DNA of 64,000 nucleotides from Russula earlei (Eukaryota > Basidiomycota > Agaricomycetes > Russulales > Russulaceae). The stretch spans positions 1-64,000 of the forward strand of contig JAGFNK010000016.1 of the NCBI GenBank assembly GCA_025769875.1. Direction: 5' to 3'. Positions 5,023 through 57,536 of the stretch are shown in pieces; positions within the stretch are counted from its first letter, which is position 1, and every line of letters begins with the position of its first letter. The notes under the pieces are model-generated. The model did no database searches and was not told the DNA's origin. It saw nothing but the letters and a program-made list of their open reading frames with translations. The translations under genes and the position numbers were made by a program.

Positions 5023-5517
5023 TGTCACAAGTACCGGTACCTCAGACTGGACCGGCAACTGGACAAGCCTACCCGGACAAGCCTCACAATTCTCGTGCGT
5101 TCTCATGACTCATCTGCCTCACATGTACCACCACCTTCCAGCGTGTTCCAGTTCGATTGTCTTGTTGTTACTTCATGTCTACTATTTGATATAGGTAGTA
5201 TCTGTCTATATAAACCTGTCAAGTAGAGGAGAACAAGCTCTAAGCTTGTTCTCCTGAGAAATATCACTGGATTTCAAACTTCAGGACTTGTAGGCTTGCA
5301 AGACATCAAGCAACTGTCTGAAACTCTCTCTACACTCATAAGTCTTCTCAACGCGAAGACTTACTCGTGACTTCCCCTCTCCGCAGAACGTATCTGCCTT
5401 GGCAATATTGTCTCCGAGACCCCCAAAATCTGTGAAGACTTAGTGTCTCACTCGACTTGCTGCGCTCGTCTCGCATGTGAACCAATTTGTCAGCAACACC
5501 GCCCCCAGTTGGTGACA
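5023..5517 (+). mobile_element. Solo LTR-G1 nested in LTR-G1
   Basis: The 495 bp sequence starts TGTCACAAGTACC and ends GGTGACA, flanked by AGATG on both sides (5018-5022, 5518-5522). It lies in opposite orientation inside an older copy of its own family. It keeps more CpG sites than the host LTR, in line with a later arrival. Confidence 0.93.
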
Positions 5518-5588
5518 AGATGTGTGCACTGAGTTGAGTGAGAACAATAGGTTCTTGCAAGATTTGGGGATCTCAGTGACAGCAATGC

Positions 5589-8459: not shown

Positions 8460-9639
8460 CAGTGACCCAAAAAACTGTTCAAATGTTTTGTACATTTTCA
8501 TTGTATTAACCATATCTAGAGAACCACTGCAGCTGATAACATGTTAGTGGGCTTGTTTTAAAGCTCTACATCATAGCTTTGTAATACAATACTATATATA
8601 CTATGAACATAATTATGTAAGAAGATATAAGGTATTTCTTCCAGTGTATCCATTTGAACAGTTTTTTTGCCTTGGTATCTAAATAGGGTATATGCCAAAC
8701 ATCAGTAGTTTGTGTATCCTCCATTTGCTTTGAACACCTCTTCCACCCTCCTAGGCATACATTCTATCAAATTCTGCACAACAGTATGATCAATGGCCTC
8801 CCATTCCAGCTGTGTGCACTCCCAAAGTTCATTGATTCCCTTAGGGGGTGTTGGATAAGCTGCAAGCTTCTTTTTGAGATGAGCCCAAAGATGCTCAATA
8901 GGATTGAGGTCTGGGGATTGAGCTGGCCAGTCCATGACCTGAATTCTGTGGTCTTGGAACCAAGATGTGGCAAGCCTGCTCTTGTGGATAGAGGCATTGT
9001 CCTGTTGAAAGAGGGTATCTTTGCATTTCTTTAGCAACCTGAGGAGCAGTATCTGCTTCTCCAGAGCTAAGAAGGTGTGTGGCAAAGCAGATGTCAAGGT
9101 CAGAGAGCTTGGAAGGACAACCTCCAGAGGACTTTGGAAGGTCAGGAAGGTATTTCTGGAAAATGTTGGTGATTGAACCAATGCTTCTGTGTGCTGCCTT
9201 GGCAATGTTACTAACTGAATGGTTGGCCTGGAGAAGGGAGATGATGTAGTTGACTTCATGAGGAAGAAGAGACTTCATGATGTTGTTGGTGAAGAAGAAG
9301 CAGCTTTTTTGGCTTATTTGCACATGGTTTGAATTTATTATTGGTCACATGACCTCCATGTTCAATTTTAGCCCTCTGGGGAAAGAATATGAATCTCAAT
9401 CTGAGAAATAATGAATTCACTAACCAAGGCCAAAAAACTGTTCAAATGGGTACACCAGCAAACATACCTTATATCTTATTAAATAATTATGCTTATGCTG
9501 TATAAAGTATACCATTACACAGCTATGATGTAGAGCTTGAAAACAAACCTAGTTACATATTATTATCTGCAGTGGTTCTCTAGATATGGTTAATACAATG
9601 AAAATGTACAAAACATTTGAACAGTTTTTTGGGTCACTG
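8460..9639 (-). mobile_element. Tc1-like transposon, 1,180 bp
   Basis: The ends are inverted repeats starting CAGTGACCCAAAAAACTG, flanked by TA on both sides (8458-8459, 9640-9641). Each inverted arm is about 210 bp long. Each also carries a second copy of the 17 bp motif AAAAAACTGTTCAAATG at its inner end, in opposite orientation to the outer copy. The element holds a damaged transposase on the minus strand. It is inserted in an LTR-G1 and so is younger than that LTR. Confidence 0.92.
8702..9278 (-). pseudogene. Tc1-like DD34E transposase, internally deleted
   Basis: The N-terminal part starts MKSLLPHEVNYI at 9278 and contains the paired helix-turn-helix DNA-binding region (SVSNIAKAAHRSIGSI, then the GCPSKLS linker). 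The C-terminal part carries the second Asp in FQQDNASIHKS, and 34 residues later the Glu in NPIEHLW, the DD34E spacing of Tc1. The part with the first catalytic Asp is missing, and the two halves are in different frames, so the enzyme is dead. A full Tc1 transposase is about 340 residues; about 190-200 codons remain. The ORF ends TAG at 8702. The copy could only move if a transposase were supplied from elsewhere. Confidence 0.88.
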
Positions 9640-10545: not shown

Positions 10546-11070
10546 GAAATGCAACTACAGATAGAGGGATCTCAAGAGGAGGTGCTTAGTCATTGCCACC
10601 CTTTTGGGTCCAACTTGTGGGTTCAACACTATGTGACCCAACCTGGAAACCTCAGAGGAGGGGGTTGACATGCACTCACAGGATTCCCTATATCCTGGTG
10701 CGATTAAGAAAATGGCCAGACTGGGGGTTGAACCCAGGACCTCCTGGATATATACCAGGTGCTCCAACCACTGAGCTACCTAGCCTTGGGTACAGTGAAG
10801 TGGATTAATCTATATGACAGATTGTATATCCAACACATTCTGTGATCAGGGACCATTCACAAGATATGCAACATGTATCTGATGGATACAGAGACATGCA
10901 TTGTCATGGTGTTGTATGGTGGCATGCATGCTTGCCTGTGCTGTGAGAGGTTGTTGTTTGCCCAAGGGGATGGTTAGACTTGTGGTTGAAAAAAAGGGGA
11001 ATGGACAAAAGAGAGAAGGGTGTGAGAAGGGAGAGCTGAGAAGATGACACAAGTGGGGGAACAGAATACA
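10546..11070. other. Unassigned spacer holding a tRNA-like sequence
   Basis: Apart from the tRNA-like cloverleaf at 10713-10785, nothing here matches another part of the window. The last 5 bases (ATACA) are the target duplication of element G1. The region downstream of the cloverleaf on the minus strand could be a SINE body, but no second copy exists here to test that. Confidence 0.4.
10713..10785 (-). tRNA. tRNA-like cloverleaf (non-canonical Ile-UAU or SINE head)
   Basis: The minus strand folds into a full cloverleaf. The acceptor stem GGCTAGG pairs with TCTGGCC with two wobble pairs. The D-arm is GCTC..GAGC, the anticodon stem CCTGG/CCAGG, the T-arm CTGGG TTCAACC CCCAG, and the discriminator base A. 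Internal promoter boxes A (TAGCTCAGTGGTTGG) and B (GGTTCAACCCC) are present and a TTTTC terminator follows directly. The anticodon loop is TATATAT, so position 33 is A where U is nearly universal; the nominal anticodon is UAU. A decayed tRNA gene or the head of a tRNA-derived SINE are both possible. Confidence 0.5.
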
Positions 11071-11568
11071 TGTCACAAGAACCAGTACATCGGACCAGAC
11101 CGGCAACCGGATAAGCCTACCCGGACATGTCTCAAGTTTCCCACGTGTTTTATGACTCCTTTTTGTTAGCCTTGCATGTACCAGACGTTTCCTGCGTGTT
11201 CCAGTTCAATTGCCTCGTCTCCACCTCATGAATACTATTTGATATAGTATCTAATGTGTATATAAGACTGCTATCTGATGAGGACAAGCTCTAAGCTTGT
11301 TCTCCTGTGAAATATCACTGGATTTCGAACTTCAGGACTTGTAGGCTTGCAAGACATCAAGCATCTCGTCTGAAACCCTTGCTACTCATAAGTCTTCTCA
11401 AACGCGAAGACTTATTCGTAGTTCCCCTCTTCTGCGGAACATATTTGCCTTGGCAGTATCATCTCCGAGATCCCCAAAACTCGTGAAGACTTAGTGTCTC
11501 ACTTGACTCGCTGCACTCGTCTCGCGCATGAACTAATTTGTCAGCGACACCACCCCCAGTTGGTGACA
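11071..11568 (+). repeat. 5' LTR of Gypsy-G1
   Basis: It starts TGTCACAAGAACC and ends GTTGGTGACA, so it has TG..CA ends with a longer TGTCAC/GTGACA inverted repeat. It contains the promoter. Compared with the 3' LTR it has more TG and CA where that copy keeps CG. Confidence 0.96.
11259..11303 (+). promoter_or_regulatory. G1 LTR core promoter and transcript 5' end
   Basis: A TATATAAG box lies at 11259-11266. About 30 bp downstream is TAAGCTTGTTCT (11292-11303), which is the exact reverse complement of the primer-binding site at 11571-11582. The distance from the TATA box fits this sequence being the first bases of the genomic RNA. That is inferred from spacing and not measured. Confidence 0.75.
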
Positions 11569-11582: not shown

Positions 11583-11648
11583 CCCTCGAACCCTTGACCC
11601 CGAACGCATACACACGCATCCACCCCCGAATACAACGATTTTGAGAAA

Positions 11649-13340
11649 ATGACTTCCATGGCCAGAGACTGGAGGTTCAAAGGACAAGGAAAACCTACAG
11701 AAGAAGGACTAAAGAAACTCAAATGTCCCTTCAAACTGAACCCGGACCTCAACGACACATTCGTTCCTGATGCCTTCAGAGAAAATGCTCATTTCCTCAG
11801 AGTAGGAATAGACAGTGTACCCTGGACCAGGTACTATGCTTATTACAGGAAGGCCAAAGTAGGCCTTGGAACCCTCTACGGCGTATGGTTCGAAATCCGA
11901 TGCCGCAAAGACTACTTCGAGGCCTACCGCGTTGCACGCCCGGCTCTTGGACTGACCTTTGACCCTCTCAAGGGTCTTGATATGGAACAGCTCATCAAAT
12001 CAGGAGAACCAATTCCAAACTCGAAGAACCCGTCCTGCGCGCCAACCCCCGGACCTGCACCCGCCAAACCTATGGAACAAGAACCCCAGACCACGACACA
12101 ACTTTTCGTCGCAGCCAACGAACCAGAAGAACCACCCATGCAGATACCTCAACAACTCGCGTTGTCCGGAACAGCGCAGGCGTACCCACGACTATCCTTG
12201 TTCCAAGGTTTCAAAGGACGCGAAAGACAACCTCCAAGCCCAGACCCCGATGACTACGGCACATATGCCATGTATGACCACGACGCACGCCCCTCTGACA
12301 ACGGTAAACTTGAAGGCGTCCCACCCAAGGCCTTCAACAGCGATCGCGCGCGCACCCACGCATTCCTCACCGCATTTCGACGCTTCATGAGGATGAATTT
12401 TGACAGCAAAATTGCTCAAAATCCTATTAAGAAATGTGCTTATTTCTTATCATTAATGGAAGGACCTCGCATCGACGGTTGGGTCGAAGCTATGGACGAA
12501 TGGCTTGAAAAGGTCATGCTCGATCCAGAGGAAATTCCCTTTGGCCTCACTGCTTGGCAAGCCATGGAGCAGCAATTCAAACGAGCATTTACCGACTATG
12601 CCAAATGCGAGCGCGCACAAGACCAGTTACAAGAACTCAAAATGAAGGACAATAACTTGGACGAATATATAGCTAACTTTGAACTATTAGCTCGACGAGG
12701 ATCTCTACATACAGATGACCCAATGGTCATGCGTCTATTTGCGTGTGGCCTCCCCAAACCATTGGTAGAAGCAATCATCAGTCAAGAAGACCCGACCACT
12801 TTCCAAGAATGGATGTCCGGCGCCCAGAAGCAACATCGCATCTGGATGCGCAAACATGCAGTCCTCACTGACCACGCCAACACCCACAACAGAAACACCA
12901 ACACCAATCGCCCCTGGGCCCGCCTCTTGAATTGGGGTGCACGCGGCAACACCACCAACAACGCTACCGCACCACGCGCATGCCTTCCACTGCGCGACCC
13001 AAACGCGATGGACACAAGCGCGGGCGCAGCACGCAAAGCGATCACCGAAGCTGACAAGGAAAAACATCGCGCCAAAGGGAGATGTTTTCACTGCTCAAAA
13101 CAAGGACACCTCGCTAGAGACTGCCCCACAAAACCCAAACGCGAACCGACACGCACACGCGCAGCAGAAGTGACCACCACCACATCCGAATCCTCCGTTG
13201 TCGAAATCATTGAAGAAAGTGCAACAGCCAAAGTCGCAAAGGCTGCCAAAGCCCTTTCTAAAGAAGAAAGAGAGGAATTCATTAGGATGTTGAATGGAGA
13301 GACTGATGACGATGAAGAAAAGGATTTTTCGGATGCCTGA
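11649..13340 (+). CDS. gag: Gag of Gypsy-G1
   Basis: The 563-residue ORF is intact from ATG at 11649 to TGA at 13338. The N-terminal 100 residues (MARDWRFKGQGKP, PWTRYYAYYRKAK) are shared with the remnant at 7838-8131. A proline-rich linker follows. The capsid-like retrotransposon Gag helical region runs from about residue 220 to 390, with a CLDEYIANFELLARRG-like segment. One CCHC zinc knuckle, CFHCSKQGHLARDC, sits near residue 479, and the tail is acidic. Gag packages the RNA into cytoplasmic particles. Pol lies in the -1 frame and its frame is already open before the gag stop, which suggests a -1 frameshift, though no classic slippery heptamer is visible. Gag is the only G1 gene without a stop or frameshift. 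Confidence 0.93.
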   Translation: MTSMARDWRFKGQGKPTEEGLKKLKCPFKLNPDLNDTFVPDAFRENAHFLRVGIDSVPWTRYYAYYRKAKVGLGTLYGVWFEIRCRKDYFEAYRVARPALGLTFDPLKGLDMEQLIKSGEPIPNSKNPSCAPTPGPAPAKPMEQEPQTTTQLFVAANEPEEPPMQIPQQLALSGTAQAYPRLSLFQGFKGRERQPPSPDPDDYGTYAMYDHDARPSDNGKLEGVPPKAFNSDRARTHAFLTAFRRFMRMNFDSKIAQNPIKKCAYFLSLMEGPRIDGWVEAMDEWLEKVMLDPEEIPFGLTAWQAMEQQFKRAFTDYAKCERAQDQLQELKMKDNNLDEYIANFELLARRGSLHTDDPMVMRLFACGLPKPLVEAIISQEDPTTFQEWMSGAQKQHRIWMRKHAVLTDHANTHNRNTNTNRPWARLLNWGARGNTTNNATAPRACLPLRDPNAMDTSAGAARKAITEADKEKHRAKGRCFHCSKQGHLARDCPTKPKREPTRTRAAEVTTTTSESSVVEIIEESATAKVAKAAKALSKEEREEFIRMLNGETDDDEEKDFSDA

Positions 13341-13345
13341 GCATA

Positions 13346-14638
13346 TTGGCGATCGCTTGGGCCTTAGGTACCAATGTACATAAAATTACAAAAAGAAAGT
13401 CAATGCAGGTCAATTTGACTATGTACGTTGGAACCTCAAAAGCCGAAAAGAAAACCACATTAATCGATAGCGGAGCAACTGAATGCTTCATATCCCCCAA
13501 ATTAACCAAACAACTCCAATTGAAAACACGAAAATTGTTAACACCTAGAGTGGTGAAAAACGTTGACAACACTCCTAATCGCCTAGGAAAGGTCACTCAA
13601 GCGGTAGACTTGGAGTTAAAACTACTGGGACAAAAAAGCAAACACCAATTCCTTGTAGCAGACATCGGACAAGACGATCTGATTTTGGGATACCCCTTCC
13701 TCGAATCAACGAATCCCAAGATCAACTGGACCAATGGAACATTGATGGGAAGAATAACCTTGTCCGGAGATGAAGGAACACCAGAATGGATAAAGAATAT
13801 CGCACAATGGGAAGAAGGCGATGAACTCTGGGTGCAAACACAACTACGAAAAACTACAATTGCCCAACAATTAGCGGAATCCCAAGTACAATCAAAACAA
13901 CTGACCTGGCAACAAATAGTCCCTCTCCAATATCATGCTTATGGCCAAGTCTTTGAAGAACAAAAATCGGAAAGATTCCCTGGACCAAGAAAATGGGATC
14001 ATGCTATCGATCTTAAACCCAATGCCCCTACGACAATCAATTGCAGAGTATACCCCCTCTCACCCAAGGAGAAGGAAGAACAAGGAAAATTTCTTGAACA
14101 AAACCTACGATTAAAGCAAATCAGAAGATCCAACTCACCATATGCAAGTGGCTTCTTTTTGATCAAAAAGAAGGACGGCAAATTTCAACCAGTACAAGAC
14201 TATAGAAACCTGAATATATGGACCATACCCAACGTCTACCCACTCCCCTTAATCCCAGAATTGATACATGCCCTAGCAGGCAAAGAACTTTTTACTAAAT
14301 TCGATATCAGATGGGGCTACAACAACATCAGGATTAAAGAAGGAGACGAATGGAAAGCAGCCTTCAAAACCAGCGACGGACTATTTGAACCAACGGTAAT
14401 GTTCTTCGGATTGACTAACTCCCCAGCAACCTTCCAGACAATGATGGACGACATCTTTCAAGAAGAACTTGCTCAAGGATGGCTGAAGATTTATATGGAC
14501 GACATCATCATCGCCACAGAAAATGATGAAGAAAAACATAAATCTAAAGTTAACCACATCCTGTCAAAATTGAAACAACACGATCTATATCTTAAACCAG
14601 AAAATGCCAATTCCACAAAAGAAAAGTCAAATACCTAG
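13346..14638 (+). pseudogene. pol: Pol part 1: protease and reverse transcriptase of G1
   Basis: The frame opens before gag ends. The protease active site LIDSGATE is intact near residue 40. The reverse transcriptase has the expected blocks: VQDYRNLN, FDIRWGYNNIRIKEGDE, FGLTNSPATFQ and the catalytic YMDDIIIATE. The frame then breaks at about 14600-14604, in the AAAA run after KPE; one A appears lost, so the reading falls into the wrong frame and stops at 14638. The rest of the polymerase continues in the next frame. With RNase H and integrase it makes the polyprotein that copies and integrates the element. Confidence 0.93.
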
Positions 14639-15357
14639 GAGTAATCATTGGTGAAGGAAAAATCACCATGGACCCAGTAAAAGTCAAAGGAATTGGAGAC
14701 TGGCCTACACCAAAAACATTAAAAGAAGTTCGGAGCTTCCTCGGGTTCTGCAACTTCTACCGCAATTTCATCCCGAATTTCTCAATTAAAGCCAGACCAC
14801 TCAACGACTTAACAAACAAGAGTAAACAATGGGAATGGACACCCAAAGAGCAACAAGCATTCCAATCACTAAAAGATACATGCGTATCCTACCCAGTTCT
14901 TCAAACTCCAGATTGGACCAAACAATTCATCCTTGACACCGATGCATCAGGATTTGCCATAGGAGCAGTTATTTCCCAAGAATATGAAGATGGACTCCAT
15001 CCTATAGCATTCTATTCAAGAACACTACTAGACGTGGAAAGAAATTACGATGCACACGATAAAGAACTAGCTGCTGTCATTTTTGGCCTAAAAAGTGGTC
15101 GACCATTCTTCCTGGGTGCAGAAAAGCCTGTCCGGATAAGGACAGACCACAAGAATCTTACATACTTTAAAGAACCACAGAAACTAACAGGACGGCAAGC
15201 AAGATGGATGCAATATATGCAAGATTTTAACTTAATTATGGAACACATCCCAGGACACACCAATACAATTGCTGATACACTTTCTCGTCGCAAAGACCTT
15301 AACAAGGGGGTAGAAGAACAAAAAACCATCCTCCTCCCACCTGAAATATTCACATGA
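14604..15357 (+). pseudogene. pol: Pol part 2: RT connection and RNase H of G1
   Basis: After the frameshift the family motifs resume: YLGVIIGEGKITMDP, then GDWPTPKTLKEVRSFLGFCN and YRNFIPNFS. RNase H follows with all four acidic catalytic residues visible in DTDASGFAIG, DKELAAV, RTDHKNL and NTIADTLSR. The stop at 15355-15357 is TGA between two conserved segments in the same frame, and a CGA-to-TGA change would explain it. Confidence 0.92.
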
Positions 15358-16266
15358 AAAATCTATCTACCCAACAAACTAGACAAACAACGAGAAATCC
15401 TACGGCAATTTCATGATGCCCCACCCGCAGGACACCCCGGAATAGCCAACACATGGGACCTAGTCAAACAACACTACGAAGGACCCAGACTACGACAATT
15501 GGTAGAACAATGCGTAAAAGGCTGTGCCAAGTGCCAAGAATCCAAAACCAATTTACCAAGAAAGAAAGCCACAACCTTCCCACTCGACACACACGTCGAA
15601 CAAGGCCCCTTTCAATACGTATCGATGGACCTCATCACTGATTTACCAAGATCAGAAGGATTCGACAGCATCCTCACCATTGTCAATCAAGGATGTTCTA
15701 AAGCGACTAAATTCATCCCTTGTAACAAAATGATCAACGGAACAGGTGTCGCACACGAATATCTGAAACACCTCGTACCTTGGTTTGGTGTCCCTAAAAG
15801 AATCATATCTGACAGAGACCCCCGATTTGCATCAAACTTCTCTAGAGCATTATGTAAAAGCTTAGGCATCAAACAAAATGTGTCCACTGCATTTCACCCT
15901 CAAACCGATGGACAAACCAAAAGAATGAATGCCTGGCTAGAACAATACTTGAGACCCTGGACCGCAACCCATCCACACTCCTGGGCAAAAATGCTTCCCA
16001 TTGCAGAATATGCACATAACTCATGGAAACATGAAACATCACGACGATCACCACATGAACTCCTCATGGGATTTAAACCTCAAATTGACATAAATCTCGA
16101 AGACAACAACGTTCCCGCCTCAACCAATCGACTCAAAGTACTAGAACAATCTAGACACGATGCACAACAACTTCTAGAACGAAAACAACAACCCTCCAGA
16201 CCTGATAACCTGGAAATGAAAGAAGGAACCCTCGTATGGTTAGAAGGCAAAAACCTCAAGACATGA
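15358..16266 (+). pseudogene. pol: Pol part 3: integrase of G1, catalytic Glu lost
   Basis: The same frame continues past the TGA. The HHCC zinc-binding region is visible in HDAPPAGHPG and CVKGCAKC. The core has the first Asp in SMDLITD and the second in SDRDPRF. Thirty-five residues after the second Asp, where the catalytic Glu is expected, the sequence reads QTDGQTKRMN, with Lys (AAA, 15919-15921) in place of Glu. One G-to-A change explains it, and the opposite strand would have been a TCG-to-TTG change. The frame then meets a second TGA at 16264-16266. Confidence 0.92.
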
Positions 16267-16848
16267 GGAAACCGCAAGCTGACCCCAAAACGTTATGGAC
16301 CCTTTCCCATCGTAAAGAAGATTTCCAAAGTCACTTACCAACTCCAACTTCCACCATCCATGAAAATACACAACGTCTTCCATGTCAATCTACTTCTACC
16401 ATATATAGAAACGGAAGAATACGGCACGCCATTTACACGACCTCCTCCGATCATTGATAACGAAGAAGAATATGAGGTCGAGGCCATTCTAGATGCCAGA
16501 AGGTTTGGACGAACACGTAAACTTCAGTATCTCGTACACTGGAAAGGTTACCCATCATCAGATGACTCATGGGTCGACCACCATGACCTCAACGCCCCCA
16601 GACTCCTCAAGGAATTCTACTCCTGCTACGGCTGGATGACCCAATGTATAAAAAGACTACCAATCCCAATCAACACTCCCCATCACTCCATTCTCCTCAC
16701 TCCAACATGTCCTCCAACGCTAACTCACCCACCACCTCTTCCGCTACTCTCGTCCCTACTCCTCCACACTCCCCAACTCTTATCCCCCTACCAATCTCTA
16801 GAGAACCATCTCCATCCATGGCTGCAACTATCAACGCTCGACTCTTAA
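16267..16848 (+). pseudogene. pol: Pol part 4: integrase C-terminus and chromodomain of G1
   Basis: Past the second TGA the frame gives the LTPKRYGPFPI and HNVFHVNLLLPY segments typical of chromovirus integrases. A chromodomain follows at about 16480-16640 (YEVEAILDAR, LQYLVHWKGY, SWVDHHDL). Chromodomains of this kind are thought to steer integration toward marked chromatin. The two usual aromatic cage positions, the Y of YEVE and the W of VHWKGY, are present. The last 60 codons are proline-rich and overlap ORF3 in another frame. Confidence 0.92.
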
Positions 16849-17963
16849 TACGACATGCAGCACAACATGCAGCAATGATAGCGCAAGCCCAAGAACTTTG
16901 GCACGAAGAAACTCTGCCCACCATACTACGAGCCTTCGGCAATCGCTCCCCCACCAGAGGAACTGACTCCTCAATTGCCCATAGCCCATCCTATCACGTT
17001 CGTTCCCCCTCTCCTGACCCCATCCCAATTCCTCCTCGACTCGACACACCCATCCCCCAACAACCAATTAATTTGGTACTCCTTAACGAAAACTTTGTCC
17101 CAATACCCCCAAGAAACAATGACACTCCCCCACCAGCTTACATAGCACCTATAGCTCCGGGAACAGACACTACGGCTGAACTGCGTGAACTGGGAGACGG
17201 CTGGATGGAAGGAACTCTAGGACTTGATGTGCTGATCCCTGACCCTGGCAACGAAGACGATACCATTCCCCCGTGATTCGTTCTGCCCGATCTGGTCAAT
17301 GGGTTCCCTTCCATCACCGCAACATACGGTCCCGGATGTCCTACTCACCGAGTCTCGATTTGAGCTCGTGCTGACCCCTATCCTTGTCCCCTCCTCACTA
17401 CAAAAGACGCCTTCGTGTTCCAAGAAGGGCTCAGACACACCAAGGCCGTCAACGAAGCCCTCACCTTCGAGCAAGACTTGTCCCTTGAAGCCGAAGTCCT
17501 TCGATATCGATTCGCCATAAAGAAAGCACGACAGATGGCCAATCAACTCATGATGGCTAGAGGACGTCACCACGACATGCTGTGGGAAATTCGGGACAGC
17601 GAGGTCAAATTGGCCAGAGCTAACGCCAAAACCCGACTCAAACCCAGAATCCTATTCCAATCCATGCCGCAACTAACCGAACAGGAACACAAAGATGCCA
17701 AAGAAGCGATCATGGATCCTTGGTATCAATTCTCCCCCCGTACTACCGACAAATGCTCCTGGTGTCTTGATGGAGGACACGACACCATCGATTGTCCCAA
17801 AATCACTACCTGCATTCTCTGCAATCGCCACGGACACAAGGCAGATCTTTGCAGAACCCCACATCGATGCTGTAAAATGTCCAAAATATGTTGAGTTTGT
17901 CAAGACCAACTCCACTACCATACCCATCACTGCATCTCTAACGTCCACCCCTACACAGGTTAG
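16644..17963 (+). pseudogene. ORF3 of G1: zinc-knuckle protein in the env position
   Basis: One frame (start MYKKTTNPNQ, or MSSNANS 20 codons later) runs to TAG at 17961, 439 codons, broken only by TGA at 17274, about 17361 and about 17892. Each TGA is one transition from CGA. The first 150 codons are Pro/Ser rich. Next comes a helical, charged stretch that could form a coiled coil (FEQDLSLEAEVLRYRF). Last are two perfect C-x2-C-x4-H-x4-C knuckles (CSWCLDGGHDTIDC, CILCNRHGHKADLC) and a third, looser one after the last TGA. The ORF overlaps the end of pol. No signal peptide or membrane segment is seen, so it is not an envelope protein. A nucleic-acid chaperone or second Gag-like role is an inference. 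Confidence 0.8.
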
Positions 17964-17967
17964 ACCT

Positions 17968-17981
17968 TAACAAGGGGGTAA
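17968..17981 (+). other. G1 polypurine tract
   Basis: The purine-rich AACAAGGGGGTAA lies directly before the 3' LTR at 17982, the place where plus-strand DNA synthesis is primed in LTR elements. Confidence 0.75.
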
Positions 17982-18479
17982 TGTCACAAGAACCGGTACA
18001 TCGGACTGGACCGGCAACCGGATAAGCCTACCCGGACATGTCTCAAGTTTCCCATGTGTTTTATGACTCCTTTTTGTTAGCCTCGCATGTACCAGACGTT
18101 TCCTGCGTGTTCCAGTTCGATCGCCTCGCCTCCACCTCATGAATACTATTTGATATAGTATCTAATGTGTATATAAGACTGCTATCTGACGAGGACAAGC
18201 TCTAAGCTTGTTCTCCTGTGAAATATCACTGGATTTCGAACTTCAGGACTTGTAGGCTTGCAAGACATCAAGCATCTCATCTGAAACCCTTGCTACTCAT
18301 AAGTCTTCTCAAATGCGAAGACTTATTCGTAGTTCCCCTCTTCCGCGGAACATATTTGCCTTGGCAGTATCGTCTCCGAGATCCCCGAAACTCGTGAAGA
18401 CTTAGTGTCTCACTCGACTCGCTGCGCTCGTCTCGCACATGAACTAATTTGTCAGCAACACCGCCCCCAGCTGGTGACA
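17982..18479 (+). repeat. 3' LTR of Gypsy-G1
   Basis: It has the same 498 bp length as the 5' LTR, starts TGTCACAAGAACC and ends GCTGGTGACA, and is followed by the second copy of ATACA. It is the more CG-rich of the pair. Confidence 0.96.
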
Positions 18480-18996
18480 ATACAGGCAGCAGAGGCTGGG
18501 AGGTGAAAATTGTGGTGCAGTGGTGGTTTGTGAACAACATGCAGGCAAGGACAGACACAGAGTGATGCTACCCAGGAGACAACAGTAACAGGCAATGGAG
18601 CAACAACAGGGTGATGGTGATAGACTGGTGGCTAGGGTTGACTGTGGGACAGGGTGGATGGGGCAAAGATGCAGGTGATGGGCAAGAACAACAAGCAGCA
18701 CAGTGGTGGCAACTAGTGGTATTGGGCCTAGGGCAGCAGACAAAGTGAAGATTGCAGTGGTGGTGGTTGGTGGGACAGGGCTTGAGGCAATGGACAACAC
18801 TAAGATGTTGACAGGTGGAAGTGCAGCCCTGGGGTAACAGGGCACAAGGCCAGGGTCAGAGACAGCAATAGTTTGGTAGCTGACAAGGTTGCAACGGTGG
18901 CAGCAACATGGTACAGAAGTGGTGGCAGCAATGTGTGAGGCCAAGACCTTGGTGGCCAAGCTTGAGACTATGGGACAATGAATGACAATGAGTCAC
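18480..18996. repeat. Degenerate low-complexity sequence (RNN/NNY type)
   Basis: A purine-rich plus strand with short TGG/CAG/GCA-like words gives a stop-poor Ser/Thr/Ala/Pro frame on the minus strand (18444-18959). It resembles the sequences at 29588-30095 and 57994-58632, and the GC-rich interior of the TA elements, but with almost no CG. It is probably one side of an old block later split by the hAT element. Confidence 0.5.
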
Positions 18997-21166: not shown

Positions 21167-21763
21167 GGTGGCAGAATGCAACCGTCCTCTGCAAATTGTC
21201 TCTGATCCTGAGCTCATCGATATTTTCAAGACCAGGCACCCCAACCGTAAAGTTCCATGTCCAAACATGGTTCAACGTGATGTTAAGGCTGCATACATCA
21301 AGTGCCATGAACAGATAAGCAAACTACTGTGAGAACACCCAGGTCGCATTCACTTTGCGACTGATTGTTGGACTTCAACCAACCACTGCGCGTTTGTTGC
21401 CTGGACTGTACACCTTGAGCATCAAGGTGCCATGCTAGCTTTCTTACTCAATATCATTGAGGTTCCGGAATCTCATATGGGTACAGCTTTGGCAAAGGCC
21501 TTTCAGAAGATGCTCGAAACATTTGGACTCCAAGATCGTATTCTGGCCATAAACGCTGACAATGGATCTGTGAACGACAAGCAGACCAAAGCTCTCACAA
21601 CGATGGAGAACTCTTTTGATGGACAAAACTGCGTCCGCTGTTTCAATCACACTCTGCATCTCTCGGCCAAAGCCCTCCTCAGCCCATTCAACGCTGCATT
21701 AGCTGGCATATCCGATAACAATGATGACGTTGGTGAAGATGGTGCACTCGATGAAGAGGACAA

Positions 21764-21816
21764 GGATGAAGACGAAGATGAGGATGAGGATGAGGATGAG
21801 GATGAAGATGAAGATG
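21764..21816 (+). repeat. Acidic hexanucleotide run (GATGAR)n
   Basis: Imperfect repeats of GATGAG/GATGAA encode an Asp/Glu run in the hAT transposase, in the variable insertion domain. Such acidic loops are common there and length variation is likely tolerated. Confidence 0.85.
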
Positions 21817-23377
21817 GATCGGATGTACCAGATGAGGATAATGATGATGATGGTATTGATGAACTTGAGAACCTAGACAAGGAGAAGAAGGAAGAGATCA
21901 TGGAAACTACAGCTACTGTTCGTCAAATCGTGACAAAGGTATGTACTATCTTAGTTGTTCCCCAGGACTCGGAGTAACCACTGATCTTGATTCAATAGCT
22001 TCGTCGTCTGTCATTTGCTATCATTCACTCAACAACTATCACTCTCCCGAAGTGGCACAAGTGTTGCAAGGAGCTCGGACTCAAGCCGCGCCTCATGCCA
22101 CGTGATGTTGTGACATGCTGGAATTCGACATACTACATCCTTCATTTTGCAACAAAATATCGTGAGGTTATTGATGCAATGACAGCCAACAAGGTCCTCA
22201 AGCTTCAGAAGTATGAGCTTGATGATGAAGAGTGGGTTATCATTGAAGATCTTGTCTTGGTACTACGGGTAAGTCATATTTTTACTTAAATTGAATTAAT
22301 TCCTAATATCTCCCCAAAGCAATTCAAGAACATGACTATCTTCTTTTCACAAGACTCCGCGGGAGTTGCTGCCGTCATTCCCGCAATGGATCGGCTTACC
22401 AGCCATCTCAACCCAAAGACAGGGAAAGAGTTCCCAGCTGCTCTCATTGAAGCCATGAAGCTTGCACGCAAGAAAATGAACCATTACTACTCCCTCACCG
22501 ACGATTCTATTGCATACTGCATCGCTATGGTTCTACACCCTGGCATGAAACTCAAATAATATTTTTGCAACCAGAATTGGGAAGGTGAATGGATTGAGGT
22601 GGCGGAGAACCTTGTTTATGATGAATACGCAAAGTATGAGAAGCCTACCACTGATGACCTGGACCGAGACTCAGCCCAAATGAAAGAAGCATACACATCA
22701 TTTGGTAATCTCTCTGTCACTACCCAACTCCACCGGAACAAGGTCCAGGCCTACTTGAGCCTCCCTGTCGAAAATGTCAAAGATCCACTGAAGTGGTGGT
22801 ACAACGACCATTTCGTATATCCAAGCCTTCATTGTATGGCTTTGGATTATCTCAGTATCCCTGCCACCTCGACAGCTGTTGAATGGGTTTTTTCACAAGG
22901 CCACACCTTCTCCCATTCACGTGCAACAATCTCTCATTGAGTTCAATTTGAGCTTTTCTCTGCTTTGGTTCCTGGGCCCATTGCGGTCTCCTTGTGTTTG
23001 ATGATGTGTTGGCTGCAGTGTCATCAAAAAAGAACATTTTGCTTGATTAGTTATACTACGTACTTCTTTTATTTTACTAGCTAGTGATACATACGTGAAA
23101 CCTGTGGTTTTTTCTTACATACCGTGGTTATTATAGAACCTGTCAAGACTCACTGTTGAACTATCCAGTTCAAGAGCGAGGGATAAGCTCGAAGACGAGT
23201 CGATAGACATCCAAGACCGCGTGGGCAAGGAGTAGAGTCCAGAGTAGTAACAAATACCAGAGAGGTATTGTTACTGTGAGAGTAGAGCAGTCACACAGGG
23301 AAGAGGCCAGGATAGTCACAAGGGGATGGTCCTTAAAGGAGTATCCCAGGGATGGAGAGTGCTGTAAACAAATGGAC

Positions 23378-53584: not shown

Positions 53585-53784
53585 ATGCAAACCCTGCTCC
53601 TACTCTGCTACCAGAGGGCTATCACCCCTCTCCCAACACTTCCACTGCTGACCCAGCCTTGCGGTCAAAATTCCAGCAAGTTATAGGATCACTCCTATAC
53701 ATAATGCTCGGAACGCGTCCAGACATAGCCTTTGTGGTCACTAAGTTGTCGCAACATGCTGCCAATCCCTCAGAGGACCATTGA
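53585..53784 (+). pseudogene. pol: Copia-1 RT-RNase H junction fragment
   Basis: [15 protein letters not shown] is followed by [20 protein letters not shown] and [21 protein letters not shown], the conserved segment before Copia RNase H. It is cut off by TA element X. Confidence 0.9.
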
Positions 53785-56700
53785 TTGCCGTTTTCAGCGC
53801 ACTTGGCGGAGGTTGAATTCCACCCAAATCGGCACAGAAAACCCTCTCAAACGTGCGGGGCGAATATCTCCCTCAAAACAGCTTCAATTCACATAAAACT
53901 TATTGTCCCTGAATCGCCTGAATGAGGGCTAGGCAGCCCCATTGTTTTCATGAGATTTGAGTGAGAATTGGTGGAGCTGGACTCAAGCCACCTCCACATG
54001 TGTATTAGATGAATTACAACTCAAAATCAGGGTCTATATCTGTTATTTTTCCCTCATGTTGTACCCATGGGCTGTCTTGAGGCAGCCCCATAGTGTTTTT
54101 GACTCAAGCATTGTGGTGTGCAATGTCGTTTCCCTCATATCGTGTGACAGTAGCACAGTCGTGTGCCAGGACGGAACCCCCCCAGGAAGTGCACACCTGA
54201 GCCCATGGGGCAGTGAAGTGTGTCCAAGAATGCAGAATGACTTCATAAGACTAAGCTCCAAAGAGGAGGAGCACCTAGCGGGAACGCAAGAACGCGTTTG
54301 TTCATTCGACTGCACTCAGGTTCACACAGATGATAAGGGAACAACAGGGCAACTTTATTCAACATGGTAGCAGATACAGGTTAGAACTAAGGCTAAGGGA
54401 CAGGAAAAGCACAAAAGACAGGCATATGAAAGGAAATCTAGACGTGAGAAGGGGACCGAAGCTGGACGACGCGAGGTATCGAGTCATGGTCTCCAGTGGC
54501 TGTGGTAGTGGCATGTGGCGATTTGTGAAGGATGGCTGAGGCCAGGTGTGGTGATGAGGGGTGTGGTCAAGTTGCAATGTGAGGAGGGGGAGACGATGCA
54601 AAGGAGAGGCTGGAGGGGGGATAGGGAGAGTGCTGGTGGGTGGTCGCTTGGGCACTGATGGCGCTGCCAAACGCGATTGCGGGTGGGACAATTGGAGAAC
54701 TTGGATGGCAGATGCGAGGTAGAGGAGCGAGGGGGCGTGGAAGTAGAAAGGGAGAGGGAAGATGGCGGCAGGCTGGGAAATGGACGCATAGGCGGCGTGC
54801 AGATCTCTGACTAACAAAATGAGAGTCTAGTAAAAAAGGGGAGAAAAGCATACCGAAATGTACAGTAGCAACACCGTCCGATGGCAACGAAGACGGCAGC
54901 GTGGTACGGGGCTCTTCAGCTGTGCATTGGGACTCGTCGGTGCATGGTGAAGGCGGGGGCGTTGAGGGCAAGGGCGTGCGGCGGTTGATGGGGGCAAGGG
55001 TGCCACAAAAACCGCCTGCTCTGCGGTATAGGTCGTGCCAAAGGTATACCGATACTGAAGGCACAAGTCCTCGTTGCGCTCTAGTGCATTTTTGCTCAGC
55101 TGGGCAAGTCAGTGCACTTGAGTTCACACTCAAGGTGAAATGACTTACCTTCTTCATCGTGAAGCCACTCCTTCTCAGGGTACGCCATATAGTCGTCAAT
55201 GACACCTCAACGCCAGTCCTTTCTCTTAAAATATCTCTCAGCTCGTCAAGACAGGCATCCGGAGTATGGACGATGGTGCCTTGAAGAAACTAGCCAATAT
55301 GCGCCACAGAACGAACTAGAGAATGTGGGGAACTCACTTGTACTTCCTGCATTGTAAGGATTCTATTTGCTGGTTGGAGTAGACTGTTTGGGCGATTGGC
55401 TGTTCCACGAGATCTGAAATTGGCCACAATGCGCTCTATAGTACAACGAGGAACTCCAGTGTGATGGGTGATATCCTCAAGGGTCAATCTTGAAGACATG
55501 TGTAAGATAATCCAGCGTGCATCATCAGACAATGCCCAGCCACGTGGCATATGTTTAGTTGAGTGTGCGATGAAAAGCGTGATGTAAAGAAAGCGTAAAG
55601 CGAGTGCGTAAAGAGTTGTGTGGCTTATTCATCAACTGTCCACCTGTCCACTCCTACTCCAGGACAACGACAGGGCGTTCTTCCCTTCCCAGAGCTGCTC
55701 ACCATACCTTGCTCTACCCCTCCATTTCAACCCCCTAAATCCTCATGGGCTTGAAGCAATGTGCTTCAAAACGCCGGCCTGCACCGACACATACTACTGG
55801 CCAAAGGAAGGCTGCCCGAAAAAAAAACTGGTGGAAATGAAAGTGACAGCTCAGGCACTCCCACTCGACCAAAGCGATCACAACCACGAGCTCAGGCTTC
55901 CAAGACATCCCTTCCTGCTATTGATGAGGATGGGGAGGAAGAGTCCTATGCCTATGTAAATGCAGAAGCCTGGGAACTCACCACAGCACAAACGCATGGA
56001 CCACAAGACATGCAAAATTGTTGCAAAGGTGCACGGCCTTGATGTCAACTCACCCACACAGCTATATGGCTGGCCGTGAATTGCTTACAAGAGTACATAT
56101 GTGCGTCTTCCTTTTGTGCCATCTCCTCTTCGTCCTCACATCATCATCATCGTCGCCACCAGCACGCCACCCTCGCCCCCATCAACTGCCGCACGCCCTC
56201 GCCCTCAATGCCCCCGCCTTCACCATGCACCGACGAGTCCCAACGCACAGCCGAAGAGCCCCGTACCACGCCGCTGTCTTCGTTGCCATCGGACGGTGTT
56301 GCTACTGTACATTTCGGTATGCTTTTCTCCCCTTTTTTACTAGACTCTCATTTTGTTAGTCAGAGATCTGCACACCGCCTATGCATCCATTTCCCACCCT
56401 GCCGCCGTCTTCCCTCTCCCTTTCTACTTCCATGCCCCCTCGCTCCTCTACCTCGCATCTGCCATCCAAGTTCTCCAATTGTCCCACCCGCAATCGCGTT
56501 TGGCAGTGCCATCAGTGCCCAAGCAACCACCCACCAGCACTCTCCCTATCCCCCCTCCAGCCTCTCCTTTGCATCGTCTCCCCCTCCTCGCATTGCAACT
56601 CGACCACACCCCTCATCACCACACCTGGCCTCAGCCATCCTTCACAAATCGCCACATGCCACTACCACAGCCGCTGGAGACCACGACTCGATACCTCACG

Positions 56701-57385
56701 TCGTCCAGCTTCGGTCCCCTTCTCACGTCTAGATTTCCTTTCATATGCCTGTCTTTTGTGCTTTTCCTGTCCCTTAGCCTTAGTTCTAACCTGTATCTGC
56801 TACCATGTTGAATAAAGTTGCCCTGTTGTTCCCTTATCATCTGTGTGAACCTGAGTGCAGTCGAATGAACAAACGCGTTCTAGCGTTCCCGCTAGGTGCT
56901 CCTCCTCTTTGGAGCTTAGTCTTATGAAGTCATTCTACATTCTTGGACACACTTCACCGCCCCATGGGCTCAGGTGTGCACTTCCTGGGGGGGTTCCTTC
57001 CTGGCACACGACTGTGCTACTGTCACATGATATGAGGGAAACGACGTTGCACACCACAATGCTTGAGTCAAAAACACTATGGGGCTGCCTCAAGACAGCC
57101 CATGGGTACAACATGAGGGAAAAATAACAGATATAGACCCTGATTTTGAGTTGTAATTCATCTAATACACATGTGGAGGTGGCTTGAGTCCAGCTCCACC
57201 AATTCTCACTCAAATCTCATGAAAACAATGGGGCTGCCTAGCCCTCATTCAGGCGATTCAGGGACAATAAGTTTTATGTGAATTGAAGCTGTTTTGAGGG
57301 AGATATTTGCCCCGCACGTTTGAGAGGGTTTTCTGCGCTGATTTGGGTGGAATTCAAACTCCGCCAAGTGCGCTGAAAACGGCAA
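53785..57385. mobile_element. Long-TIR TA element, X type, with transposase piece
   Basis: A 3,601 bp element with ends TTGCCGTTTTCAGCGCAC and its inverse. The inverted arms are about 1.2 kb each (53785-55003 and about 56165-57385), the longest here. The 1.16 kb centre holds the N-terminal half of a Tc1/mariner-type transposase on the minus strand and a basic ORF on the plus strand. The flanks do not match: GA and Copia-1 sequence on the left, TA and unrelated sequence on the right. I infer recombination between two copies. Confidence 0.9.
55003..55550 (-). pseudogene. Tc1/mariner-type (DDE_3) transposase, N-terminal half
   Basis: Starts MPRGWALSDDARWIIL at 55550. Two introns with GT..AG borders, 55290-55337 (48 bp) and 55100-55148 (49 bp), join the exons. 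The helix-turn-helix is LTLEDITHHTGVPRCTIERI. The winged part is LDELRDILRERTGVEVSLTT, then RTLRRSGFTMKK. The third exon has ALERNEDLCLQY and ends YTAEQAVFV, exactly before the first catalytic Asp (family: VFVDE), where the element arm starts. So the whole catalytic domain is missing. The protein could at most bind DNA. The start lies about 195 bp from the plus-strand ORF at 55745, which suggests a shared promoter. Confidence 0.85.
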
Positions 57386-57536
57386 TAATACCATCATAGA
57401 AGCTTTGAAAAAGGGTGTGCAACCCTTGAATGATCTGATGGCATGGTTCTTGGACAAGATCATGGATAAAGTCCAGGTGAAATGCTATTTTGTGCAGGAG
57501 GGATGCCTTTCCATCACTGCCCTGGACAACACTGTA

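Follow-up and report, generated by a model that had tools for sequence, protein, structure and literature searches.

A third gene of a Russula earlei chromovirus resembles Pol C-terminal tails of other families and may encode a detached integrase partner

Introduction

A decayed Ty3/gypsy chromovirus in the genome of Russula earlei, here called G1, carries an open reading frame (ORF3) between pol and the 3' LTR. What does this frame encode? Env-like ORFs of Ty3/gypsy elements lie 3' of pol, and a third gene in an LTR retroelement is commonly taken to be env or a regulator. A first reading of the window (the whole 64,000-nt stretch of R. earlei contig that was analyzed) was made from the letters alone and is called the sequence-only reading below. 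It described a third frame with zinc knuckles and proposed a second nucleic-acid-binding structural or regulatory protein. We find that ORF3 is a genuine third gene that has evolved under purifying selection and that related modules occur as fused C-terminal tails of Pol in other chromovirus families. These fusions suggest that ORF3 belongs with the integrase end of Pol.

Results and Discussion

Anatomy of the element

The G1 copy in the window is bounded by LTRs and by a 5-bp target duplication, and its two LTRs are 95.8% identical over 502 aligned nt (Table 1). Its assignment to the chromoviruses rests on the LTRs; on Pfam matches to gag, protease, reverse transcriptase (RT), SH3, and chromodomain; and on the kin of the integrase frame. 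The knuckle that the sequence-only reading had noted in Gag is present. Elsewhere in the window, an extra partial copy of the G1 LTR (5350-5518; 83% and 86% identical to its two LTR stretches) is perhaps a solo-LTR remnant, and an inverted repeat (53784-57386) has 1,219-nt arms that are 98% complementary, separated by a spacer of 1,165 nt. Frames at 8702-9274 (minus strand) and 21333-21977 (plus strand) presumably encode transposases of the Tc1/mariner and hAT types, respectively, the latter followed by a long acidic run.

Table 1. Features of the G1 element in the window
Feature	Position	Strand	Basis or remark
Target duplication ATACA, 5' copy	11066-11070		Directly before 5' LTR
5' LTR, TGTCAC...GTGACA, 498 nt	11071..11568	+	Ends read from sequence
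gag frame	11598..13340	+	Retrotrans_gag match (Pfam) and one CCHC knuckle
Gag CCHC knuckle	13083-13124	+	Within the gag frame
pol	13316..16620	+	Split into several frames in the window copy
Protease and RT part of pol	13316-14638	+	Pfam
Middle part of pol, presumably the RNase H region	14596-15357	+
Part of pol taken to be integrase	15358-16266	+	Kin (129 further genome matches)
SH3 and chromodomain part of pol	16267-16620	+	Pfam
Chromodomain, C-terminus of integrase	16471..16620	+	PF00385, E = 1.6e-12, residues 69-118 of frame 16267
ORF3	16707..17963	+	Common ATG to common TAG, 418 codons; three TGA codons inside in the window copy
PPxY motif (PPAY)	17130..17141	+	Lies in the part of ORF3 that is Pro-rich and varies most
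Charged, presumably helical segment	17427..17741	+	ORF3 residues 241-345; pN/pS 0.088; helices in a low-confidence model
Zinc knuckle 1, CX2CX4HX4C	17754..17795	+	Motif and copy alignment
Zinc knuckle 2, CX2CX4HX4C	17811..17852	+	First half of the composite module common with other families
Third Cys/His site (C-x5-C-x7-H-x5-C in other copies)	17871..17933	+	Second half of the composite module; G1b, G2, and G3 have a counterpart
Stretch between ORF3 stop and 3' LTR	17964..17981	+	Read from sequence; holds a purine run that we take to resemble a polypurine tract
3' LTR, 498 nt	17982..18479	+	LTR comparison
Target duplication ATACA, 3' copy	18480-18484		Directly after 3' LTR

Limits of ORF3

The genome (66.6 Mb, 1,374 contigs) was searched for ORF3, and 30 copies were compared, namely, the window and 29 others, taken from the loci of the 30 best among 40 scored matches (309 candidates at first look). 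In the window, the frame 16644-17963 is broken only by three TGA codons, as first described. The third ORF is real, and its start lies downstream of the one first proposed: ATG 16707 is present in all 27 rows of the junction alignment and ATG 16644 in 13 of the 27, which makes ORF3 418 codons long and not 439. The final TAG is common to 29 of 30 copies, the one miss being the end of the alignment. Most of the sampled copies are interrupted, while five have 394 to 418 open codons from the common ATG, and four of these reach the final stop. Because 65 of the 70 in-frame stops in all copies are TGA at CpG-bearing codon sites, we attribute them to CpG decay; they reflect ageing of the copies and not the gene.

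ORF3 has evolved under purifying selection

Pooled over all pairs of the 30 copies, pN/pS of ORF3 was 0.145, close to the 0.151 obtained for the SH3-chromodomain part of pol (118 codons, 27 copies). The same DNA read in the two shifted frames gave 1.32 and 1.66. Values differed along the protein: 0.194 for residues 1 to 40, 0.159 for 41 to 84, 0.279 for 85 to 165, 0.106 for 166 to 240, and 0.186 for 385 to 418, with the lowest in the charged segment (Table 1) and the knuckles (0.092). After masking of CpG columns, codon positions 1, 2, and 3 diverged by 0.038, 0.021, and 0.225. The median pairwise dN/dS was 0.109 (435 pairs). In the one locus read of a sister subfamily, G1b, ORF3 is open from end to end, and 311 of 414 aligned residues are identical to those of G1 (pN 0.163; pS 0.684, which is near saturation).

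The sequence-only reading had ascribed the conserved knuckle spacing to selection, a view that depended on related elements carrying ORF3 and on purifying selection at its Cys/His residues. Both hold. The eight knuckle ligands (C350, C353, H358, C363, C369, C372, H377, and C382) are present in 30 of 30 copies when scored at window-aligned codons with frameshifted copies counted. Of 2,244 integrase candidates, 130 were scored, and ORF3 was found downstream of at least 87 of them. It lies within 3 kb in 65 of these 87 (at 437 to 449 nt in 55) and, by coordinates, within 4.5 kb in the other 22. The ORF3 candidates scored were the best 40 of 309, 101 of 662, and 150 of 399, and the 43 other integrase copies may carry ORF3.

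In the protein database, the only relative of ORF3 was one R. earlei gene model, which covers the N-terminal half of ORF3 and not the knuckles. The G3 tail described below had no relative there at E values up to 1; transposon proteins may be underrepresented in this database. Scans of IMG/VR with ORF3, and of IMG/VR and GTDB with the integrase, returned no relative.

Features of the predicted protein

The start of ORF3 is Pro/Ser-rich, in keeping with the proline-rich start first described, and its N-terminus is rich in Pro, Ser, and Thr. A PPxY motif is intact in 29 of 30 copies and is lost in the last to a stop at the Tyr position; it also occurs in the R. earlei protein, and G1b has PPIY. 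Such a motif may recruit a WW-domain ligase. The middle was originally described as charged and helical, and its helices are backed solely by an AlphaFold2 model of an open 176-aa piece with a mean pLDDT of 42.5, too poor to use.

The two knuckles that had been called perfect are indeed CX2CX4HX4C. The third, described as a looser CCHC knuckle, owes that appearance to a private substitution in the window; what is conserved there is a Cys/His site that is not of the CCHC type. Its residues C389, C395, H403, H405, H407, and C409 are present in all 30 copies, and H392 is present in 29, with the window as the exception. This second type of zinc site was covered by none of the 38 PDB matches listed for the module profile and had no Pfam match above the cut-off. 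Two Pfam candidates were set aside as below the cut-off, SLATT_4 in ORF3 and Cys_Knot_tox over the second zinc site (best E = 0.067).

Fused Pol tails in two other families

Family G2 was reached from a weak CCHC match next to another element, and weak relatives of G2 led to family G3. In G2 (read in one 2.5-kb piece), an 833-aa frame takes in, in this order, integrase, the chromodomain, and a 499-residue extension that holds the module; it is part of a longer frame of 1,726 aa, and in another copy the frame reaches 1,833 aa. In G3 (read in one piece plus six module-sized pieces), the integrase-chromodomain frame likewise continues, into a 566-residue extension with the module. The G3 junction was crossed by all 150 scored matches (1,287 candidates), which ran from query residues 1 to 15 to residues 145 to 155, and five copies have frames of 1,683 to 1,693 aa, consistent with a whole tail. 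For the G2 junction, 38 of about 150 rows listed cover at least residues 9 to 143 of the 155-residue query, 17 of them without a stop in the match; the remaining rows are fragments or chromodomains from other families. In the nine rows of G1-type pol whose match has no stop, the frame is 1,104 to 1,117 aa long and thus shorter by about the length of a tail.

Another chromodomain family (G000:C133, C243, C25, C406, and C110) matched the G2 query at its chromodomain end alone. Its open frames of 1,576 to 1,673 aa may hold a Pol tail of another kind, or Gag fused to Pol.

ORF3 and the fused tails share a composite zinc module

ORF3 and the G2 and G3 tails have in common the composite module CX2CX4HX4C-x2-PH-x2-C-x5-C-x(5-7)-H-x(5-8)-C. 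G1 and its sister G1b have one extra knuckle ahead of it; this knuckle 1 is absent from G2 and G3, and a strict PPxY is absent from G2. The pattern C..C....H....C..PH..C.....C is present in 29 of 30 G1 loci and, within the window and loci L031 to L099, occurs only in G1, G1b, G2, and G3 sequences. Alignment of ten module sequences gave ten invariant columns, nine of them within the module (C, C, G, H, C, P, H, C, C). In the 30 best zf-CCHC loci, none of the 30 knuckles had a second site beside it.

Likeness extends beyond the zinc ligands. The G1/G1b profile aligned with that of G2 and G3 at an hhalign probability of 89% (E = 2.2e-6) over 246 colinear columns (155 to 404), reaching outside the zinc module; against G3 alone the probability was 41% (E = 2.8e-4) over 104 columns, the knuckles not among them. 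G2 and G3 matched each other by tblastn (E = 1e-13). G1 and G2 matched in the SPSYHVR-PSP region (E = 2.3e-9) and in the zinc region (E = 2.7e-4), values that come from a two-sequence comparison without composition correction or a low-complexity filter. With the G1/G1b profile, the score of G2 was reached by 0 of 1,000 shuffles, and for G3 the full-length score was reached by 51 of 1,000 and the best-domain score by 4 of 1,000. Judged by sequence, these comparisons show that ORF3 is kin to the fused Pol tails, well for G2 and for G2 and G3 together and weakly for G3 alone. ORF3 thus has the zinc module of the Pol C-terminal extensions and a likeness to them outside it that is weak for G3 alone; in-frame fusion to Pol is absent from G1 and from the single G1b locus read. 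Since ORF3 is separate there, after a pol stop, we name it the detached form.

Integrase identity between the families is nearly even, at 41 to 51%, and does not single out the closest families or the older arrangement. The free form may have split off from a fused one, or the fused tails may have arisen by fusion, and the module may have one origin or several.

Junction with pol and translation

An overlap of ORF3 with the end of pol, reported in the sequence-only reading, is private to the window copy, where it arises because the pol tail is frameshifted and has no stop there. In 24 of 26 other copies, the pol TAA lies 52 to 56 nt upstream of the ORF3 ATG (55 nt in 17), and pol stops earlier in the remaining 2; three of the 30 copies, in which the region is missing, were left out of this count. 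The corresponding gap at the G1b locus is 61 nt. Relative to pol, ORF3 occurs in each of the three possible frames (21, 5, and 2 of 28 sequences). Because programmed frameshifting or readthrough needs a fixed frame and the frame varies, separate initiation is the better reading. Thus, ORF3 is most likely translated from a start of its own beyond the pol stop, either by reinitiation or from its own mRNA. Against this, pol and ORF3 share a frame in two sampled G1 copies, where nothing but a stop separates them. In one G1b-type copy, integrase lies in a frame of 1,547 aa, with one TGA in its match, and ORF3 in a frame of 709 aa, possibly a fusion. Readthrough or an occasional pol-ORF3 fusion may therefore occur in some copies.

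A possible function of ORF3

We lean, with modest confidence, toward the reading that ORF3, a genuine chromovirus gene, is a detached form of the C-terminal tail of Pol (integrase) and that its product acts in trans as a partner of integrase/Pol. The protein would begin with a Pro/Ser-rich arm carrying PPxY, continue through a conserved middle and a segment that is probably helical, and end in a zinc region composed of a CCHC knuckle and a second, noncanonical Cys/His site. Translated by its own initiation past the pol stop, it would join the particle or the integration complex, bind element RNA or cDNA there, and do in trans the job that the fused tail would do in cis. Nucleic-acid binding is predicted from the knuckles; CCHC knuckles bind RNA or cDNA, as is established for nucleocapsid. 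Because the module is fused to Pol in G2 and G3, ORF3 is expected to work with integrase/Pol. More tentatively, and as something possible rather than probable, basidiomycete chromoviruses would possess an unrecognized integrase-tail module with a two-site zinc domain. One lineage would translate this module independently, acting in trans on the integration complex, which would give separate control of the catalytic integrase and its nucleic-acid- or target-binding partner.

ORF3 could also be a second, Gag-like structural protein that coats or packages RNA and helps particle assembly, with an action unrelated to integrase; we consider this unlikely, while giving it real weight. The order of its parts, a Pro-rich arm with a late-domain-like PPxY, then helices, then tandem CCHC knuckles, resembles that of retroviral Gag. 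The two best PDB matches of the module profile were retroviral nucleocapsid 1u6p (E = 3.2e-4) and, level with it, a terminal uridylyltransferase; the nucleocapsid match covers the first knuckle only. Like nucleocapsid, ORF3 has tandem CX2CX4HX4C knuckles, in 30 of 30 copies; unlike nucleocapsid, it is not part of Gag, its knuckles are followed by the second Cys/His site, and a Pfam search of ORF3 found no Gag or capsid domain. A duplicate of Gag was rejected since the Gag of G1 itself is similar at one knuckle only (hhalign probability of 1%, 17 knuckle columns). Moreover, the tail of Pol, where the related module sits in G2 and G3, is an odd site for a structural protein needed in excess.

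Less probable still is a regulatory or RNA-export factor that would handle unspliced element RNA in the nucleus. The accessory position of ORF3 and its motifs, which are of an RNA-binding type, would suit such a role. CERV of the Caenorhabditis elegans element Cer1, a non-env accessory protein, proves that an LTR retrotransposon can encode such a factor (PMC10309623). Its likeness to ORF3 is one of description, and CERV arises from a spliced mRNA (PMC10309623). In G2 and G3, fusion to Pol would bind a regulator to the amounts of Pol and to particles. Hence, a trans-acting integrase/Pol partner is favored over a second Gag and over a nuclear regulator. Of the function first proposed, nucleic-acid binding fits the motifs; as for a structural or regulatory role, ORF3 appears to be a detached Pol C-terminal extension and is unlike the element's own Gag.

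The last two explanations were rejected as scarcely credible. An env-like gene would explain the position between pol and the 3' LTR, but ORF3 has zinc knuckles and kinship to Pol tails and, as first noted, no membrane segment, the highest 19-residue Kyte-Doolittle means in two full-length open copies being 0.65 (G1) and 0.84 (G1b). An accidental open stretch or functionless passenger host fragment would account for the three stops in the window and the many interrupted copies, but it is contradicted by purifying selection in this frame and not in the shifted ones, by the common stop and ligands, and by the five largely open copies.

Relation to described elements

A figure legend in PMC2864245 names, for fungal Gypsy elements, an additional ORF ("add. 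ORF") with no known function, and the same source describes a C-terminal dUTPase in the Pol of such an element in a basidiomycete. Shared with ORF3 and the fused tails are extra coding beyond gag-pol and an extra C-terminal domain of Pol; the domain is a dUTPase there, and here it is a zinc module, which forms a Pol tail in some families and a free ORF in others. The env-like ORFs of Ty3/gypsy elements, also mentioned in PMC2864245, share the location 3' of pol, whereas ORF3 has zinc knuckles in place of a hydrophobic segment. A literature search by title or the start of the abstract, with subscription journals mostly outside its range, found nothing closer to the module than PMC2864245. The Pol-tail fusions open the "additional ORFs" of fungal elements to testing, and they let a single module be compared in its natural cis and trans settings. 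The composite zinc module may prove to be a new family.

A fourth chromovirus family

The 30 best chromodomain loci (L031 to L060, of 150 scored) belong to one family, the fourth in this comparison, and a module joined to pol was not found in these 30 loci. Four of them have foreign pieces of ORF3 or of a tail 1.08 to 1.11 kb past pol, from G1b in L034, G3 in L050 and L059, and G2 in L060. Because this distance is nearly constant, we read the pieces as neighbors that the fourth family invaded and not as part of it, which suggests that this family inserted into the ORF3 or tail regions of other chromoviruses. Close behind the fourth-family pol, a putative 134-aa frame is present in L031, L040, L052, and L060, four of the six copies translated.
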